40,303 nucleotides of DNA from positions 1-40,303 of the forward strand of contig CACXJE010000021.1 in the NCBI GenBank assembly GCA_902767915.1, in the 5' to 3' direction. The notes beneath the pieces were generated by a model. The model saw only the letters and a program-made list of their open reading frames with translations, was not told where the DNA came from and did no database searches. This DNA comes from Oscillospiraceae bacterium. Its GTDB lineage: Bacteria; Bacillota; Clostridia; Oscillospirales; Oscillospiraceae. The position numbers were made by a program, and so were the translations under genes. Shown one piece after another: positions 23,713 to 39,198 of the stretch (its first letter is position 1; each line of letters opens with the position of its first letter).

Positions 23713-23908
23713 TGTAGGGACGAGCCCTGCTCGTCCGGTTTGCCGACGCGAAGCGAGTGCAAACGATCGTCCGGAGGGCGATATTCACGAACATCCGGAT
23801 TTGCCTGCGGCAAATTGCATTCGGTCCGAATGCCGGACAAGCAAGGCTTTAAGTGACGGCCCAAATCTCTGATTTGGCTGCCGGAACTTATGCAGAGCTG
23901 TCCCTACA
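23713..23908. repeat. Hairpin-mosaic repeat element bounded by TGTAGGGAC/GTCCCTACA
   Basis: The ends are inverted copies: TGTAGGGACGAGC on the left, GTCCCTACA on the right (interrupted by a nested element). Inside are several perfect mini-hairpins with 2-4 nt loops, including GGACGAGC/GCTCGTCC, ATTTGCC/GGCAAAT and GCATTCGG/CGAATGC. It fills the topA-trmFO gap. No open frame is supported. Confidence 0.8.
23849..23898 (+). mobile_element. 50-bp palindromic element nested in a host hairpin (copy 1)
   Basis: Begins TTAAGTGACGGCC and ends GCCGGAACTTATGCAGAGC, with a 7-bp apical stem CCAAATC/GATTTGG. It is flanked by ...GGACAAGCAAGGCT and TGTCCCTACA; removing it rejoins GGACAAGC-AAG-GCTTGTCC, a perfect hairpin. 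It shares both termini with the copy at 35586. Interpretation as a mobile element is inference from the restored empty site. Confidence 0.65.
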
Positions 23909-33688: not shown

Positions 33689-33709
33689 ATATGAATGGGA
33701 GGTTACTCC

Positions 33710-34561
33710 ATGGAACTCTGGTTCTCTGAATTTCATGCGCCGGATGTGAAGCACTCCATCCGGATCAACAAACACCTGTACTCTCACCAGTCGGATTTCC
33801 AGCGGATCGACATCTTTGAGACCCCGGAATTCGGCCGGGTCCTGGCCCTGGACGGCAACGTCCAGCTCACAGAACGGGACGAGTTTATCTACGACGAAAT
33901 GATCACCCACGTCCCCATGGCTGTCCACCCGGGCATCAAGGACGTGCTGGTCATCGGCGCCGGCGACGGCGGCGTGGTGAAGGAGCTGGCCCGCTATGAG
34001 CGGATCGAGCGCATCGACCTGGTGGAGATGGACCCCGAGGTCATCAAGGCCTGCCGGGCCTATCTGCCGGAGAACGCCTCCCGTCTGGACGACCGCCGGG
34101 TCCACATCTACTACGACAACGCCCTGCGGTTCATCCGCCGCTGCTCGGAGCAGTACGACCTGATCATCGTGGACTCCACGGACCCCTTCGGCCCCTCCGA
34201 GGGCTATTTCACCAGGGAGTTCTACGGCATCTGCTACAACGCCCTCCGGGAGGACGGGATTATGGTAAACCAGCAGGGCTCTCCCTTCTATCAGCACGAC
34301 GCGGAGGCCATGCAGCGCTCCCACCAGCGGATCGTCCACACCTTCCCGATATCCCGGGTCTACCAGGCCCATATTCCCACCTACGCCGCAGGCTACTGGA
34401 CCTTCGGCTTCGCCTCCAAGAAATATCATCCCGTGGATGATCTGGACGCCGCGGGCTGGAACAAGCTGAATCTGCAGACCAAGTATTACACCACCCGGCT
34501 GCACGTGGGCGCCTTCTGTCTGCCGGCCTTCCTGGAGCAGCTGCTGCGGGAGGTGGAGTGA
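33710..34561 (+). CDS. speE: Polyamine aminopropyltransferase (spermidine synthase)
   Basis: 283 residues. The N-terminal beta domain is followed by the methyltransferase-like core with V-L-V-I-G-A-G-D-G-G-V-V-K-E-L, V-E-M-D-P-E-V and the catalytic D155-S-T-D158-P. It transfers an aminopropyl group from decarboxylated S-adenosylmethionine to an amine, usually putrescine. No S-adenosylmethionine decarboxylase gene is present in the window, so the donor must come from elsewhere. Because it sits between arginine decarboxylase and agmatinase, agmatine is also a possible acceptor. The start is ATG 33710 with GGAGG 7 nt upstream. It overlaps speB by one base (TGATG). Confidence 0.93.
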   Translation: MELWFSEFHAPDVKHSIRINKHLYSHQSDFQRIDIFETPEFGRVLALDGNVQLTERDEFIYDEMITHVPMAVHPGIKDVLVIGAGDGGVVKELARYERIERIDLVEMDPEVIKACRAYLPENASRLDDRRVHIYYDNALRFIRRCSEQYDLIIVDSTDPFGPSEGYFTREFYGICYNALREDGIMVNQQGSPFYQHDAEAMQRSHQRIVHTFPISRVYQAHIPTYAAGYWTFGFASKKYHPVDDLDAAGWNKLNLQTKYYTTRLHVGAFCLPAFLEQLLREVE

Positions 34562-35418
34562 TGCGGCAGAACGTGGAGACCTTCATCGGCTGCGACGCGG
34601 CCTTTGCGGACGCAAAAATCGTCCTTTTCGGCGCCCCCTTCGACTCCACCACCTCCTTCCGTCCCGGCGCCCGCTTCGGCTCCGCTGCCATGCGGCATGA
34701 GAGCTTCGGCATAGAGACCTGGAGTCCCTATCAGAATCTGGATTTGACCGACTATGCCGTCTTCGACGCCGGGGATCTGGAGCTCTGCTTCGGCTCTGCG
34801 GAAATGGCCCTGGCGGACATCCGGGCACGGGCGGAGGAGATCCTGCAGGCCGGGAAGCTGCCCCTGCTGCTGGGCGGCGAGCATCTGGTGACCCTGGGGT
34901 CCGTCCGGGCTGTGGCGGAGAAATACCCGGATCTGCACATCGTCCACTTTGACGCCCACGCGGATCTGCGGGACGACTACCTGGGCGCCAAGCTCAGCCA
35001 CGCCTGCGTGATCCGCCGCTGCCACGAGCTGGTGGGGGACGGACGTATCCATCAGTTCTGCATCCGCAGCGGCGACCGGGAGGAATTCTGCTTCGCCAAG
35101 GCCCACACGGAGCTGCACCCCTTCGACTTTACCGGCCTGGAGGAGCTCTGCGACCGCCTTGCCCGCACCGGCACCCCTGTCTACTTCACCATCGACCTGG
35201 ACTGCCTGGACCCGGCCTGCTTCCCCGGCACCGGCACCCCCGAGGCCGGCGGCGTCACCTTCCCCCAGCTTCTCAAGGCCATCCTGGCCGTAGCCAAAAC
35301 CAACGTGGTGGCCGCGGACCTGAACGAGCTGGCCCCCATGCTGGACCCCAGCGGGGTTTCCACCGCCATGGCCTGCAAGGTCCTGCGGGAACTGCTGCTC
35401 GCTTTGCTCGCCAGTTGA
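34561..35418 (+). CDS. speB: Agmatinase (ureohydrolase family)
   Basis: 285 residues. All manganese ligands of the arginase/agmatinase fold are visible: G-G-E-H108, D131-A-H133-A-D135, and I-D212-L-D214-C-L-D-P. The enzyme hydrolyses agmatine to putrescine and urea; an aminopropyl-agmatine substrate is possible given the tight link to speE. The ATG overlaps the speE stop (TGATG) and has GGAGG upstream, indicating translational coupling. The TGA stop (35416-35418) lies in the first unit of a period-7 repeat, which probably defines the C-terminus. Confidence 0.94.
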   Translation: MRQNVETFIGCDAAFADAKIVLFGAPFDSTTSFRPGARFGSAAMRHESFGIETWSPYQNLDLTDYAVFDAGDLELCFGSAEMALADIRARAEEILQAGKLPLLLGGEHLVTLGSVRAVAEKYPDLHIVHFDAHADLRDDYLGAKLSHACVIRRCHELVGDGRIHQFCIRSGDREEFCFAKAHTELHPFDFTGLEELCDRLARTGTPVYFTIDLDCLDPACFPGTGTPEAGGVTFPQLLKAILAVAKTNVVAADLNELAPMLDPSGVSTAMACKVLRELLLALLAS

Positions 35419-35473
35419 AAATTGAAAATTGAGAGTTGAAAATGAAGGTGTTTTTCAGATTGCCATCTGAAAA
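35415..35473. repeat. Period-7 repeat array plus hairpin at the speB stop
   Basis: Four heptads of consensus TTGAAAA (35415-35442), the first containing the speB stop, then TGAAGGTG and a hairpin TTTTCAGAT/ATCTGAAAA with loop TGCC (35452-35473). It is homologous to the array at 39622 but lacks the right-hand inverted heptads. Confidence 0.85.
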
Positions 35474-35516
35474 CCGTCGATTCGATGATCGGCTTTCGAC
35501 AATGCACAGCCCGTAG

Positions 35517-35535
35517 GGGCGGCCAGTGGCCGCCC
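35517..35535. repeat. GC-rich perfect mini-hairpin
   Basis: GGGCGGCC/GGCCGCCC with loop AGT, preceded by CCGTAGG as in the TGTAGGG element family. It is part of the 286-bp repeat-filled gap between speB and the DUF4304 gene, which contains no supported gene. Confidence 0.6.
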
Positions 35536-35564
35536 GCCCGACGCAAAAGCCTTCCCCGTTTGTC

Positions 35565-35664
35565 ATTGCGAGCCAGTGCGCACACTTAAGTGACGGCCCA
35601 AATATGCAAGCCTCGGCGCAGCATATTTGGCTGCCGGAACTTATGCAGAGCTGGTTGTGGCAAT
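35565..35664. repeat. Host REP-like hairpin split by a nested element
   Basis: ATTGC...GCAAT form the outer stem and CCAGTG-CGCA-CAC / TGG the inner stem; the inner hairpin becomes perfect (CCAGTG/CACTGG) only if 35586-35651 is removed. Confidence 0.7.
35586..35651 (+). mobile_element. 66-bp palindromic element nested in a host hairpin (copy 2)
   Basis: Shares both termini with the copy at 23849 (TTAAGTGACGGCC at the left, GCCGGAACTTATGCAGAGC at the right) but has a different, longer apical stem, CCAAATATGC/GCATATTTGG (10 bp). Basal sequence is conserved while the apical stem changes with pairing kept. It is inserted just before TG in the 3' arm of the host hairpin, as in copy 1. Confidence 0.7.
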
Positions 35665-35704
35665 CCGCATCCCCCGGATAGGATAATGGACAAAGGTGTT
35701 ACCT

Positions 35705-36520
35705 ATGCAGCGTTTTTTAAAAAAGAATAATACTGCCGAGAAACCAACCGATCCTGTGCAGGCTTCGGTTGAGAAGCCAGATATAAAGAAAGTTCTGGAC
35801 GAGATCGAGGCCGCGGTTTACGCCCACCTGAAGCCCCTCGGCTTCCGGAAGCACGGCAGGACCCTCCACCGCTTCGTCTCCGGGGACATCTCCCAGGTTG
35901 TTTCATTTCAAGTTTACCGGAATATGATGGAGCCTTCAGACAAGTTCTGCGTCAACTTAGGCATCCGCGTCCCGGAATGCGCCGAGCGTAAATTCCAGCC
36001 ATCCATTGAAAAGACGTACTATCAGGAACAGGAATGTACGCTCCGCTCCAGATTGGGCAGCGTTTCAGGGCGGAAAGAAGCTTGGTTTTCTCTGTGTGAT
36101 GACCCGACGCAGACGACCGAGGCGATGATCGAGGAGCTGGACCATTTCGTCCTGCCTGTATACGACGTTCTGTGCAGCCGGGAAGCAATCCTTTCCAAAC
36201 GGCGGGATTACCCGCAGATGGATACGATGGGCAGGCATTTGATCCCATTAGATGAGTGTTTTATTTTCGGCCATCTCGGAGATATGGACCGTGCCAGAGA
36301 ACGCTTTGACGCGTTCTATCAGGAAAAACAGGACGAGCTTCAAAATGGAAGGAGCATTTATCTGGATCAGGGTATGCGCTATTATTCCTCAAGAGGGACT
36401 GTTTACGCCGCACAAAGCGGGTATTATACTGTTTTCGACGATGATGTTACGCGCATGCAGTTGAAAAATCTGGACGCGCTCGCCGTGGAGCTCGGTTTTC
36501 GTGAGCCGCCAACGGAATAA
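35705..36520 (+). CDS. DUF4304 domain-containing hypothetical protein
   Basis: 271 residues. The segment from about 27 to 150 (L-D-E-I-E-A-A-V-Y-A-H-L-K-P-L-G-F-R-K-H-G-R-T-L-H-R-F) matches the DUF4304 pattern, a family of unknown function often found near toxin-immunity or scattered accessory genes. No signal peptide, membrane segment or catalytic motif was recognised. The ATG at 35705 has AAAGGTG 6 nt upstream; an in-frame GTG at 35696 lies inside that site. Base composition is lower in GC than the polyamine genes around it, and repeats flank it on both sides, so it looks like an insertion into the polyamine cluster. Confidence 0.7.
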   Translation: MQRFLKKNNTAEKPTDPVQASVEKPDIKKVLDEIEAAVYAHLKPLGFRKHGRTLHRFVSGDISQVVSFQVYRNMMEPSDKFCVNLGIRVPECAERKFQPSIEKTYYQEQECTLRSRLGSVSGRKEAWFSLCDDPTQTTEAMIEELDHFVLPVYDVLCSREAILSKRRDYPQMDTMGRHLIPLDECFIFGHLGDMDRARERFDAFYQEKQDELQNGRSIYLDQGMRYYSSRGTVYAAQSGYYTVFDDDVTRMQLKNLDALAVELGFREPPTE

Positions 36521-36542
36521 CACGCAAAGACACTGCGTGCTA

Positions 36543-36564
36543 TGGCCGCGGGGGTCCGCGGCCA
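36543..36564. repeat. GC-rich hairpin after the DUF4304 gene
   Basis: A 9-bp perfect stem TGGCCGCGG/CCGCGGCCA with loop GGGT. No T-run follows, so it is more likely a repeat than a terminator. Confidence 0.55.
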
Positions 36565-36591
36565 CTACGGAACAGTCACACCGGAACTTGA

Positions 36592-36736
36592 TGTAGGGAC
36601 AAGCATTGCTTGTCCGGCATTCGGTACGAATGCAATTTGTCAAAGGCAAATCACAAAAACCGACCGCCTGCGAGAAATCGCGCTTTGCGCGATTGTTCGC
36701 CTGCGGCGAACCGGACGAGCAATGCTCGTCCCTACA
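36592..36736. repeat. Hairpin-mosaic element bounded by TGTAGGGAC/GTCCCTACA
   Basis: The left end TGTAGGGACAAGC-ATT-GCTTGTCC and right end GGACGAGC-AAT-GCTCGTCCCTACA are each hairpins and are inverted copies of each other. Between them lie further short hairpins: GCATTCG/CGAATGC, AATCGCGC/GCGCGATT (loop TTT) and GTTCGCC/GGCGAAC (loop TGC). No gene is supported in the 270-bp gap. Confidence 0.85.
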
Positions 36737-36790
36737 GGATAATCTTTCAGGTTTCACAAATATCAATTCAAATCACAGGAGGTAACAAAT

Positions 36791-38050
36791 ATGAGTAGAG
36801 TTCTCGTCATCGGCTGCGGCGGCGTCGCCAACGTGGCCATTCGCAAGTGCTGCATGCTGCCGGAGGTCTTCACCGAGCTTTGCATTGCCAGCCGGACCAA
36901 GTCCAAGTGCGACGCCCTGGCCGCGGAGCTGAAGGACAAGACTTCCACCGTCATCACCACCGCCCGGGTCAACGCCGACAGCGTGGAGGAGCTCTGCGCC
37001 CTCATCAACAGCTACAAGCCCGATCTGGTCATGAACATCGCCCTGCCCTATCAGGATCTCACCATCATGGAGGCCTGCCTCCGCTGCAAGGTCAACTACA
37101 TGGACACCGCCAACTACGAGCCCGAGGACACCGACGATCCCGAGTGGCGCAAGGTCTACGAGAAGCGCTGCAAGGAAAAGGGTTTCTCCGCCCTCTTTGA
37201 TTACAGCTATCAGTGGGCCTATCGGGAGAAGTTCGAGAAAGCCGGTCTCACCGCCCTGCTGGGCTGCGGCTTCGACCCCGGCGTGACCCAGGCCTACTGC
37301 GCCTACGCCAAGAAGCATGAGTTCGACGAGATCGACACCATTGACATCCTCGACTGCAACGGCGGCGACCACGGCTACGCCTTCGCCACCAACTTCAACC
37401 CCGAGGTGAACCTGCGGGAGGTCAGCGCTCCCGGCTCCTACTGGGAGGACGGCCACTGGGTGGAGATTCCTCCCATGGCCATCAAGCGGGAGTACAACTT
37501 CGACCAGGTGGGCAACAAGGATATGTACCTGCTGCACCACGAGGAGATCGAGTCCCTGGCGGAGAACATCCCCGAGGTGAAGCGTATCCGCTTCTTCATG
37601 ACCTTCGGCCAGAGCTATCTGACCCACATGAAGTGTCTGGAGAACGTGGGCATGCTCTCCACCACCCCGATTAACTTCGAGGGCCACGAGATCGTTCCCA
37701 TCAAGTTCCTGAAGGCTCTGCTGCCGGATCCCGCCTCCCTGGGCCCCCGGACCCACGGCAAGACCAACATCGGCTGCATCTTCACCGGCCGCAAGGACGG
37801 ACAGGAAAAGAAATACTATATCTACAACGTCTGCGATCACCAGGAATGCTACAAGGAGGTCGCCTCCCAGGCCATCTCCTACACCACCGGCGTACCGGCC
37901 ATGTGCGGCGCTCTCATGATGCTCACCGGCAAGTGGATCAACCCCGGCGTTCACACCGTGGAGGAGTTTGACCCCGATCCCTTCCTGGACGCCCTGGACA
38001 AGTACGGCCTGCCCAGGTCCGAGTCCCACGACCCGGTGCTGGTACCGTGA
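36791..38050 (+). CDS. Carboxynorspermidine/carboxyspermidine synthase (saccharopine dehydrogenase family)
   Basis: 419 residues. The N-terminal Rossmann motif V-L-V-I-G-C-G-G-V-A-N-V and the downstream G-C-G-F-D-P-G-V-T-Q and M-D-T-A-N-Y-E segments are typical of the carboxynorspermidine branch of the saccharopine dehydrogenase family. It condenses aspartate semialdehyde with putrescine (or diaminopropane) by NADPH reduction to carboxyspermidine (or carboxynorspermidine). AGGAGG lies 8 nt before the ATG. The stop overlaps the nspC GTG start (GTGA), so the two are translationally coupled. Confidence 0.93.
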   Translation: MSRVLVIGCGGVANVAIRKCCMLPEVFTELCIASRTKSKCDALAAELKDKTSTVITTARVNADSVEELCALINSYKPDLVMNIALPYQDLTIMEACLRCKVNYMDTANYEPEDTDDPEWRKVYEKRCKEKGFSALFDYSYQWAYREKFEKAGLTALLGCGFDPGVTQAYCAYAKKHEFDEIDTIDILDCNGGDHGYAFATNFNPEVNLREVSAPGSYWEDGHWVEIPPMAIKREYNFDQVGNKDMYLLHHEEIESLAENIPEVKRIRFFMTFGQSYLTHMKCLENVGMLSTTPINFEGHEIVPIKFLKALLPDPASLGPRTHGKTNIGCIFTGRKDGQEKKYYIYNVCDHQECYKEVASQAISYTTGVPAMCGALMMLTGKWINPGVHTVEEFDPDPFLDALDKYGLPRSESHDPVLVP

Positions 38051-39198
38051 CGGCCGAGACCCGCGCCGGAGAGATCCTGGCAGGGGTGGCGGCCCGGACC
38101 GGCTGCAAATTCCTGCTGGCCCAGAAGGCCTTTTCCAACTATGACTGCTACCCGGTGCTGGCGCCTTACCTGGCGGGCACCGAGGCCAGCGGTCTGTTTG
38201 AGGCGCGGCTGGGCGCCGAGGAGCTGCCGGAGAAGGAGGTTCACGTGTTCTGCGGGGCCTACCGGGAGCAAGATTATGAGGAGCTGCTGCGATATGCGGG
38301 GCACATTGTCTTTAACTCCCCGGCCCAGCTGGCCAAGTTCGGCCCCCGGGCCAGGGCCGCGGGCAAGAGCCTGGGCCTGCGGATCAACCCGGAGTGCTCC
38401 ACCCAGGAGGGCCACGAGATCTACGACCCCTGCGCCCCCGGCTCCCGGCTGGGCACCACCCGGGCCCAATGGGACAAGCAGATGACCCCTGCGTTGGTCG
38501 CCCTGCTGGACGGTCTCCATTTCCACACCCTCTGTGAGCAGGATGCCGACGCTCTGGAGGTCACCCTGGGAGCCGTGGCGGAGAAATTCGGAGACGTCCT
38601 TCCCAAAATGAAATGGCTCAACATGGGCGGCGGCCACCACGTGACCCGGCCCGACTACGACATTCCCCGGCTGGAACGGTGCATTCGATTCGCCCAGGCC
38701 AAATGGGGCGTAACCGTGTACCTGGAGCCCGGAGAGGCCTGGGCGCTGAACGCCGGCTTTTTGGCCAGCCGGGTGCTGGATCTGACGGAGAACAACGGCG
38801 TAAAAAACGCGATTTTAGACTGCTCCGCCGCCTGCCACATGCCGGACGTGATCGAGATGCCGTATCAACCGCCGGTCTATGGAGCGGCGGCCGTGCAGGC
38901 GGCCGATGACCGCCTGCACGAGGGAACAGGGAACAGGGATCAGGGAACAGGATTTGTTTATCGACTGGGTGGGCCCTCCTGTCTGTCGGGGGACGTGATC
39001 GGGGATTACGAATTTGACCACGCCCTGGAAATCGGGGAACTGGTGCTCTTCGGGGACCTGGCCATCTACTCCACCTGCAAGAACAACACCTTCAACGGGA
39101 TGCCGCTGCCGGACATTTACCGCCGCAAGGAGGACGGCAGCCTGGAACGCCTCACCAGCTTCGGCTACCGGGATTTCAAATACCGTTTGGGCCGCTAA
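38047..39198 (+). CDS. nspC: Carboxynorspermidine decarboxylase, N-terminus short and insertion-bearing
   Basis: 383 residues, fold type III (alanine racemase-like). The PLP lysine is K27 in L-L-A-Q-K-A-F-S, and the C-terminal active-site segment G-G-P-S-C-L-S-G-D-V is intact. It decarboxylates carboxyspermidine to spermidine. Two oddities: the usual N-terminal strand (T-P-x-Y-V-x-D-E type, roughly 14 residues) is missing because translation begins at a GTG overlapping the previous stop, and the loop before V-Y-R-L-G-G-P carries about 20 extra residues encoded by a hairpin and heptad repeat (38892-38948). Upstream in-frame sequence does not resemble the missing part. Activity may be altered; the family call is secure. 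Confidence 0.88.
   Translation: MTAETRAGEILAGVAARTGCKFLLAQKAFSNYDCYPVLAPYLAGTEASGLFEARLGAEELPEKEVHVFCGAYREQDYEELLRYAGHIVFNSPAQLAKFGPRARAAGKSLGLRINPECSTQEGHEIYDPCAPGSRLGTTRAQWDKQMTPALVALLDGLHFHTLCEQDADALEVTLGAVAEKFGDVLPKMKWLNMGGGHHVTRPDYDIPRLERCIRFAQAKWGVTVYLEPGEAWALNAGFLASRVLDLTENNGVKNAILDCSAACHMPDVIEMPYQPPVYGAAAVQAADDRLHEGTGNRDQGTGFVYRLGGPSCLSGDVIGDYEFDHALEIGELVLFGDLAIYSTCKNNTFNGMPLPDIYRRKEDGSLERLTSFGYRDFKYRLGR
38892..38948 (+). repeat. Hairpin plus period-7 repeat inserted in nspC
   Basis: A perfect 11-bp hairpin CGTGCAGGCGG/CCGCCTGCACG (38892-38920) is followed directly by four heptads of consensus AGGGAAC (38921-38948). All is in frame within nspC and has no stop codon. Confidence 0.8.

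Follow-up and report, generated by a model that had tools for sequence, protein, structure and literature searches.

An imperfect hairpin of about 45–70 nt, copies of which were found through the Clostridia, is probably a non-autonomous mobile DNA element whose precise insertion point lies between W (A or T) and G, often in hairpin repeats, and which is mobilised in trans. Its copies are dispersed into different hosts which occur both empty and filled, its stem covaries and holds few G.T pairs, and its junctions follow a W^G rule when TAAG is taken as its start. The element was identified in a stretch of 40,303 nucleotides from an Oscillospiraceae bacterium (contig CACXJE010000021.1, positions 1 to 40,303 of the forward strand), the whole of which is referred to below as the window.

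The element and its host hairpin

The sequence of the window reads ATTGCGAGCCAGTGCGCACAC, then the element at 35586–35651, then TGGTTGTGGCAAT. Removal of the 66 nt rebuilds CCAGTG-CGCA-CACTGG within an ATTGC/GCAAT stem, which confirms that the element splits a host hairpin (host A), as the sequence-only reading had described. The boundary can be slid by one T, and 35587–35652, which starts with TAAG and ends with GAGCT, is an equal fit that agrees with the other copies; the natural reading is thus host ...CACT, element TAAG...GAGCT, host GG. The features are as follows.

35565..35585, + strand: left part of host hairpin A, ATTGCGAGCCAGTGCGCACAC, with uninterrupted copies elsewhere
35586..35651, + strand: element, 66 nt (35587–35652 equivalent, T at both ends), scoring 97.1 bits with model R1, whose alignment includes this copy itself
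35587..35591, + strand: 5′ arm of outer stem P1, TAAGT, partner ACTTA at 35639–35643
35592..35593, + strand: GA facing GA at 35637–35638, a tandem mismatch that is symmetric, with both sides retained in 98 of 100 distinct rows
35594..35597, + strand: 5′ arm of stem P2, CGGC, partner GCCG at 35633–35636, with strong covariation
35598..35607, + strand: 5′ arm of stems P3/P4, CCAAATATGC, partner GCATATTTGG at 35621–35630
35631..35632, + strand: bulge CT in the 3′ arm, aligned as 2 or 3 nt across the 100 distinct rows
35639..35643, + strand: 3′ arm of outer stem P1, ACTTA
35644..35651, + strand: 3′ tail, TGCAGAGC
35652..35664, + strand: right part of host hairpin A, TGGTTGTGGCAAT, from the sequence and the empty copies

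In other copies the 3′ tail ends with AGC plus W, or a longer 3′ part stands in its place, in many cases a hairpin with GTCGYW at its end. Folded as a DNA hairpin on both strands, the insert gave −15.9 kcal/mol (z −3.4), and as low a value was reached by 0 of 200 shuffles on the + strand and 1 of 200 on the − strand.

Uninterrupted host A (GCGAGCCAGTGCGCACACTGG, at most 1 mismatch) was found 38 times in 6 of the 22 genomes searched, 6 of these occurrences being in the window's own genome, and a reversed-pattern control gave 0 matches in the 22 genomes. The copy had been read from the window as a precise insertion, without target duplication, into a pre-existing hairpin, a view against which a lack of empty sites in every relative would have told; the empty copies of the host repeats support it. 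The right arm in the window differs slightly from that of the empty host copies (TGGTTGTGG versus TGGCGTGG), so that the window copy has no exact 9+9 match among the rejoined sites. No orthologous pair of sites with and without the element was found; at the 35.6 kb site, host A (at most 3 mismatches) was absent from the 14 relatives' loci having the upstream gene, among which only L289 of genome G004 retains both flanking genes.

A Pfam scan of 27 ORFs in the window was consistent with the earlier statement that no transposase is encoded there. The genes at 33695–39198 encode a spermidine synthase, an arginase family protein, a DUF4304 protein, a saccharopine dehydrogenase family protein and a decarboxylase, perhaps forming a polyamine cluster, and the element lies between the arginase-family and DUF4304 genes. 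A GTAG-type REP (GTAGGGGCGGCCAGTGGCCGCCCG) lies at 35513–35536, about 50 nt upstream of the element.

A shorter copy with its own host was detected elsewhere in the window.

23835..23849, + strand: left part of the host REP of the second copy, GGACAAGCAAGGCTT
23849..23898, + strand: short second copy, 50 nt (equivalently 23850–23899), scoring 63.1 bits with R1 and likewise within the alignment of R1
23900..23907, + strand: right part of the same host REP, GTCCCTAC

The rejoined host, GGACAAGCAAGGCTT^GTCCCTAC, is intact four times in L291 and is also present in L368. It is a GTAG-type REP, and REPs of that family surround a RAYT gene in L351.

Distribution of the family

Further copies, which had been suggested as something to look for, form a family found through the Clostridia. 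With R1, a model built from 30 copies (alignment A1) whose E-values are rough after a brief calibration, matches at E ≤ 0.001 were obtained in at least 14 of the 250 genomes from the family and at least 18 of the 391 from the class, the window's genome being included in both counts. Deeper scoring of genomes picked for having copies found them in 14 of 14, with 3 to 12 copies each, and 47 in G003. Among the matches listed from a pattern scan over named genomes (80 of 118 stretches), most were from MAGs titled Oscillospiraceae, Clostridia or Clostridiales, together with Clostridium beijerinckii HUN142 and C. chromiireducens DSM 23318. One good match (L225) lies in a MAG titled bacterium DOLZORAL124_38_8, a name that does not indicate Clostridia. 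The exact pattern had no match in viral contigs, and blastn with the long copy had none in plasmids and phages.

In L128, at 1501–1724, head-to-tail tandem copies of the element with a period of 49 nt are followed by one diverged copy. The flank beside the copy at the contig end in L028 (G012:C114) resembles what we take to be a sequencing-adapter remnant, and this outer flank is presumably unreliable. The papers listed by literature searches with element sequence strings were judged unrelated from their titles and the beginnings of their abstracts, and word searches, which covered few subscription journals, gave nothing on the element family among the matches listed.

Empty sites and junctions

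Among 166 copies differing in their flanks, 64 had a rejoined site (9+9 nt, exact) that was present uninterrupted elsewhere in the loci examined, while swapping the right flanks between copies gave 3, 4, 5, 5 and 7 such copies. Of 24 distinct junctions, which are not independent events as several are variants of one host and the L128 offset of 26 is doubtful, 20 were W^G (11 T^G and 9 A^G), under a convention in which the search pattern dictates the TAAG start and the right end is put at whichever offset matched most often. Of the remaining four, T^T and C^T come from the L128 tandem copies, C^G from a tRNA-Pro copy and T^A from a variant of host B. The base to the left of the junction is the host's; since the element's last base changes without regard to it, a one-base duplication in the strict sense is lacking.

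At least five host repeats (A, B, C, E and G) are clearly distinct in sequence, the others being variants or sharing parts, and the hosts include RAYT-associated REPs, partial tRNA copies and rRNA spacers. Two of the junctions are in GGCAATA repeats, which are non-palindromic hosts with empty sites. The flanks of 29 out of 107 copies could form a stem of at least 7 bp, where swapping the flanks gave 7.8 ± 2.5, the 107 being reduced from 126 full-flank copies and not independent cases, since host-B variants are counted repeatedly. In the other 78 copies the flank stem was shorter than 7 bp; palindromic hosts are thus enriched but not universal.

Host C raises a different explanation, in which the core, lacking insertion machinery of its own, would be just a loop module belonging to REP-like repeats, swapped by recombination and multiplied by the RAYTs of its hosts. 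The element has the same orientation in 23 of 23 host-C contexts, and in G003, 21 of the 22 copies examined, out of 47, are in host C or C′. In the same genome host-C′ REPs surround a RAYT gene (L352), and the element therefore sits within repeats of known RAYT type. The RAYT gene in L351 is flanked by the host-G REP. Perhaps the spread in G003 occurred largely through movement of the REP itself. As a general account, we regard the loop module as quite unlikely, since the same core with the same W^G junction is found in different hosts such as the partial tRNA copies and the non-palindromic GGCAATA repeats, and since copies occur in G115 and G285, in which no RAYT match was found. Both orientations were found in host A (2 and 1) and host B (6 and 3). 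All 8 of the genus genomes tested gave RAYT matches. Genomes of this genus hold several RAYT genes each, lying among GTAG-type REPs (L151, L156, L159, L351, L352 and L360), and some of the RAYTs have weak scores against Pfam Y1_Tnp.

Copies near tRNA and rRNA genes

Downstream of the tRNA gene and its terminator, L027, L095, L215 and L232 each hold a partial copy of the tRNA 3′ end with the core inside it; L230 resembles the L027 type, though ARAGORN calls no tRNA, and L234 (tRNA-Pro) and L141 (tRNA-Tyr) have similar partial 3′-end contexts with the core. The T-arm in L027, L095 and L232 is turned into a longer hairpin bearing the same GA/GA mismatch. Partial copies of the tRNA-Leu 5′ end with the core are found upstream of the tRNA-Leu gene in L120 (three copies), L126, L129 and L139.

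Pre-5S spacers of C. beijerinckii and C. chromiireducens carry the core (L295; L296, L297 and L299), and in the same genomes there are pre-5S spacers with a second hairpin type at this point, and others with neither the core nor that hairpin (L304, L308 and L314; L313 and L315). The left boundary at these sites is clear (GAGAT^), and the right one was placed by eye. In other rRNA operons of the two species this second type and a third one occupy the same pre-5S point (L298, L300, L301, L303, L305 and L307; L316).

Probably a DNA hairpin rather than an RNA

Strong covariation, as well as the copies adjoining tRNA and 5S genes, could be explained by a structured RNA kept for an RNA function, with incidental dispersal. 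In an alignment of 100 distinct rows from 91 chosen sources (A3), 276 cells were changed on both sides of a pair, against 73 after shuffling and at most 52 with slid partners. A3 omitted the weak-P1 copies of G220 and G285 (L099, L100, L106, L107, L112, L113 and L116) as well as L120, L121, L124, L128 and several same-genome repeats. Most of these omissions are present in A2 (69 distinct rows, weak-P1 copies included), which gave the same result, with 211 double changes against 53 shuffled and at most 36 slid. The P2 pairs observed were CG, GC, UA and AU. The search pattern fixed P1, P3 and one P2 base and left P2 columns 9–11 free; P1 and P3 varied little, a conservation which is partly due to this selection.

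GA stands opposite GA in 98 of the 100 distinct rows, as it does in 38 of 39 rows from loci outside the pattern selection, the rows found with R1 being biased to its consensus, GA/GA included. Outside the family, GA/GA was not among the 15 commonest mismatch types in hairpins of the same loci (stems of 5+3 bp).

RNA helices tolerate G.U pairs, and a hairpin obliged to form in DNA gains nothing from G.T. Only 12 of 1711 paired cells (0.7%) were G.T, compared to 70 of 1091 (6.4%) in 51 tRNAs (p = 3e-18), a control drawn from all loci then collected and not from the same sources as the element rows. The counts were 5 of 668 in the 39 rows not selected by the pattern and 8 of 1178 in A2. From this near-absence we infer selection at the DNA level, and the almost pure Watson–Crick pairing points to a DNA rather than an RNA structure. 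Moreover, where partial tRNA copies are involved the core reads in the same direction as the adjoining tRNA, yet it is antisense to the rRNA in the Clostridium operons, which speaks against a single RNA function. Rfam gave 0 matches at the gathering score in the window, and none over the core in L001 (E up to 10) or in L027, L047 and L053 (E up to 1). An RNA function is therefore, in our view, very improbable.

Search for a mobilising gene

Recurrent ORFs near the copies were examined in 137 loci (2583 ORFs), and no transposase was found among those checked, from the 25 largest clusters. The size of the largest clusters was 4 to 7 loci. Seven cluster examples were compared with Pfam, of which four matched LRR/S-layer, ABC transporter, MatE and Clp-type families and three matched none, two of these three running through the element copy itself.

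IS200/IS605 elements insert 3′ of a conserved 4–5 nt target and pass through a single-strand circular intermediate; classical MITEs have terminal inverted repeats plus a target duplication. The sequence-only reading had found the element reminiscent of non-autonomous elements derived from the former; on this view it would be a MITE or PATE moved by a Y1 TnpA. Target duplication is absent at the junctions, as in IS200/IS605 and not as in classical MITEs, the hairpin is imperfect, bulged and devoid of an internal gene, and an IS200-like TnpA gene is present in G000. PATEs share the lack of target duplication and the hairpin structure, and 52-bp ones made of termini only may be mobile in Haloquadratum, by the description in PMC3119063. 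On the other side, the 24 junctions have no conserved tetranucleotide or other 4–5 nt target, only W^G being common to them, and no Y1 gene with element ends was found. A Y1 (TnpA/RAYT) gene flanked by the element, which had been suggested as something to look for, was found at none of 25 Y1 loci, apart from one marginal 12.8-bit hit in L146, and at none of 12 RAYT loci. Y1_Tnp was detected in 13 of 18 element-bearing and 221 of 373 other genomes (p = 0.33, not significant), a comparison which assumes the same 391 genomes in both counts, matched by identifiers. The resemblance to IS200/IS605 thus holds for the lack of target duplication, and it is plausible that the element, like IS200/IS605 and RAYT, relies on a mechanism using single-strand hairpins; descent from IS200/IS605, given W^G alone and no significant link to Y1, appears unlikely.

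Another site-specific recombinase, either an integron-like tyrosine recombinase acting on folded strands or an IS110-type enzyme, could use a circular form and a one-base crossover, which would suit the lack of duplication and the single shared base W at the junction. IS110-type genes were detected in 6 of 14 element-bearing genomes; matches were absent from the other 8, some of these genomes being incomplete. Four IS110 loci were tested. One of them, L338 in G618, has three weak copies 0.35–0.8 kb from the gene, all on its upstream side (2386–2802), and the third has a long insertion within its own loop. We read them as a cluster of repeats and not as IS ends. The element does not bound the gene there, and no copy was found at L337, L339 and L340; the three copies in L338 nevertheless keep an IS110-type enzyme under consideration. 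Boxes like those of attC were not apparent in the alignment. Taken together, a recombinase of either kind seems to us quite improbable.

Comparison with nested repeats

The nearest precedents are the SMR-A repeats of Haloquadratum walsbyi and REPs nested in palindromes. By their description in PMC3119063, SMR-A repeats (HqIRS42/43/55) are short and gene-less, lie inside the palindromes of other mobile elements without target duplication, and have a mobilisation that is called enigmatic. The present element is likewise a short gene-less repeat within palindromes of mobile elements, which are enriched but not universal among its hosts, and makes no target duplication. According to the same source, SMR-A repeats differ in being about 110 bp long and archaeal, with prominent terminal inverted repeats and with PATE/IS605 ends as hosts, whereas our element is a single GA/GA hairpin of about 45–70 nt hosted by REPs, tRNA pieces and rRNA spacers.

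The GTAG-15, GTAG-23 and CGTC-1 REPs were found inside longer palindromes (PMC3733652), which is the same arrangement of a hairpin repeat within another palindrome; as described there, the nested unit is a tagged REP, whereas the element is untagged and nested in GTAG REPs. No conserved GTAG or CGTC tag, a trait of REPs, was found at the hairpin foot in our alignment, GTAG being present in the tail of some rows. E. coli TnpAREP requires a conserved two-base mismatch in the REP stem, although selection experiments favoured the mismatch bases only moderately (PMC8266576). The group 2 REPs of E. coli, as presented in that paper, resemble the element as imperfect DNA hairpins with such a mismatch, but the element lacks the GTAG foot, its mismatch is GA/GA, and no copy is found beside the 12 RAYT loci. 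A 2025 survey of REPs (PMC12306157) holds no mention of Clostridi-, and tables Acetivibrio clariflavus under Bacillota. In short, the element works like a nested short mobile repeat, and its membership of IS200/IS605 or of the REPs is unsupported by the tests.

Proposed mechanism

In the explanation that we favour, the mobile DNA hairpin would insert between W and G without target duplication, often in the loop or the 3′ arm of other hairpin repeats and above all in the REPs of RAYT transposases. As it begins with TAAG(T) and usually ends with W, one base would be common to the element end and the target. The element may move as a folded single strand, and the recombinase that reads its GA/GA mismatch, bulge and TAAGT/ACTTA foot would be provided in trans and would most probably belong to the HUH (Y1/RAYT-like) enzymes. 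We judge an HUH-type enzyme acting on folded single strands to be the likeliest mobiliser, as a candidate only. Once in a REP, the element could also be copied along with it, which would explain the 47 copies in G003.

A bolder version, which we put forward tentatively, would make the element a hyperparasite of REPs, that is, a class-wide set of hairpins with a structure-reading trans recombinase of their own, which places a W-ended hairpin at W^G within other hairpins (REPs and copied arms of tRNA genes among them), and then riding on the transposase of the host repeat. The enzyme would be a novel one, or else a recombinase of a known type (HUH, tyrosine or IS110) with a hitherto undescribed hairpin-into-hairpin activity.

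Significance

The copies in tRNA pieces and rRNA spacers indicate that the neighbourhood of stable RNA genes is hit as well. Covariation here seems to mirror the structure of DNA and not that of RNA, the sign being the near absence of G.T pairs. PMC3119063 described as enigmatic the archaeal mobile repeats which enter other mobile hairpins although they lack a transposase. The present bacterial family has many copies, matched empty sites, a target rule of one dinucleotide and a covarying DNA structure, and with it the question of what moves nested repeats becomes testable.
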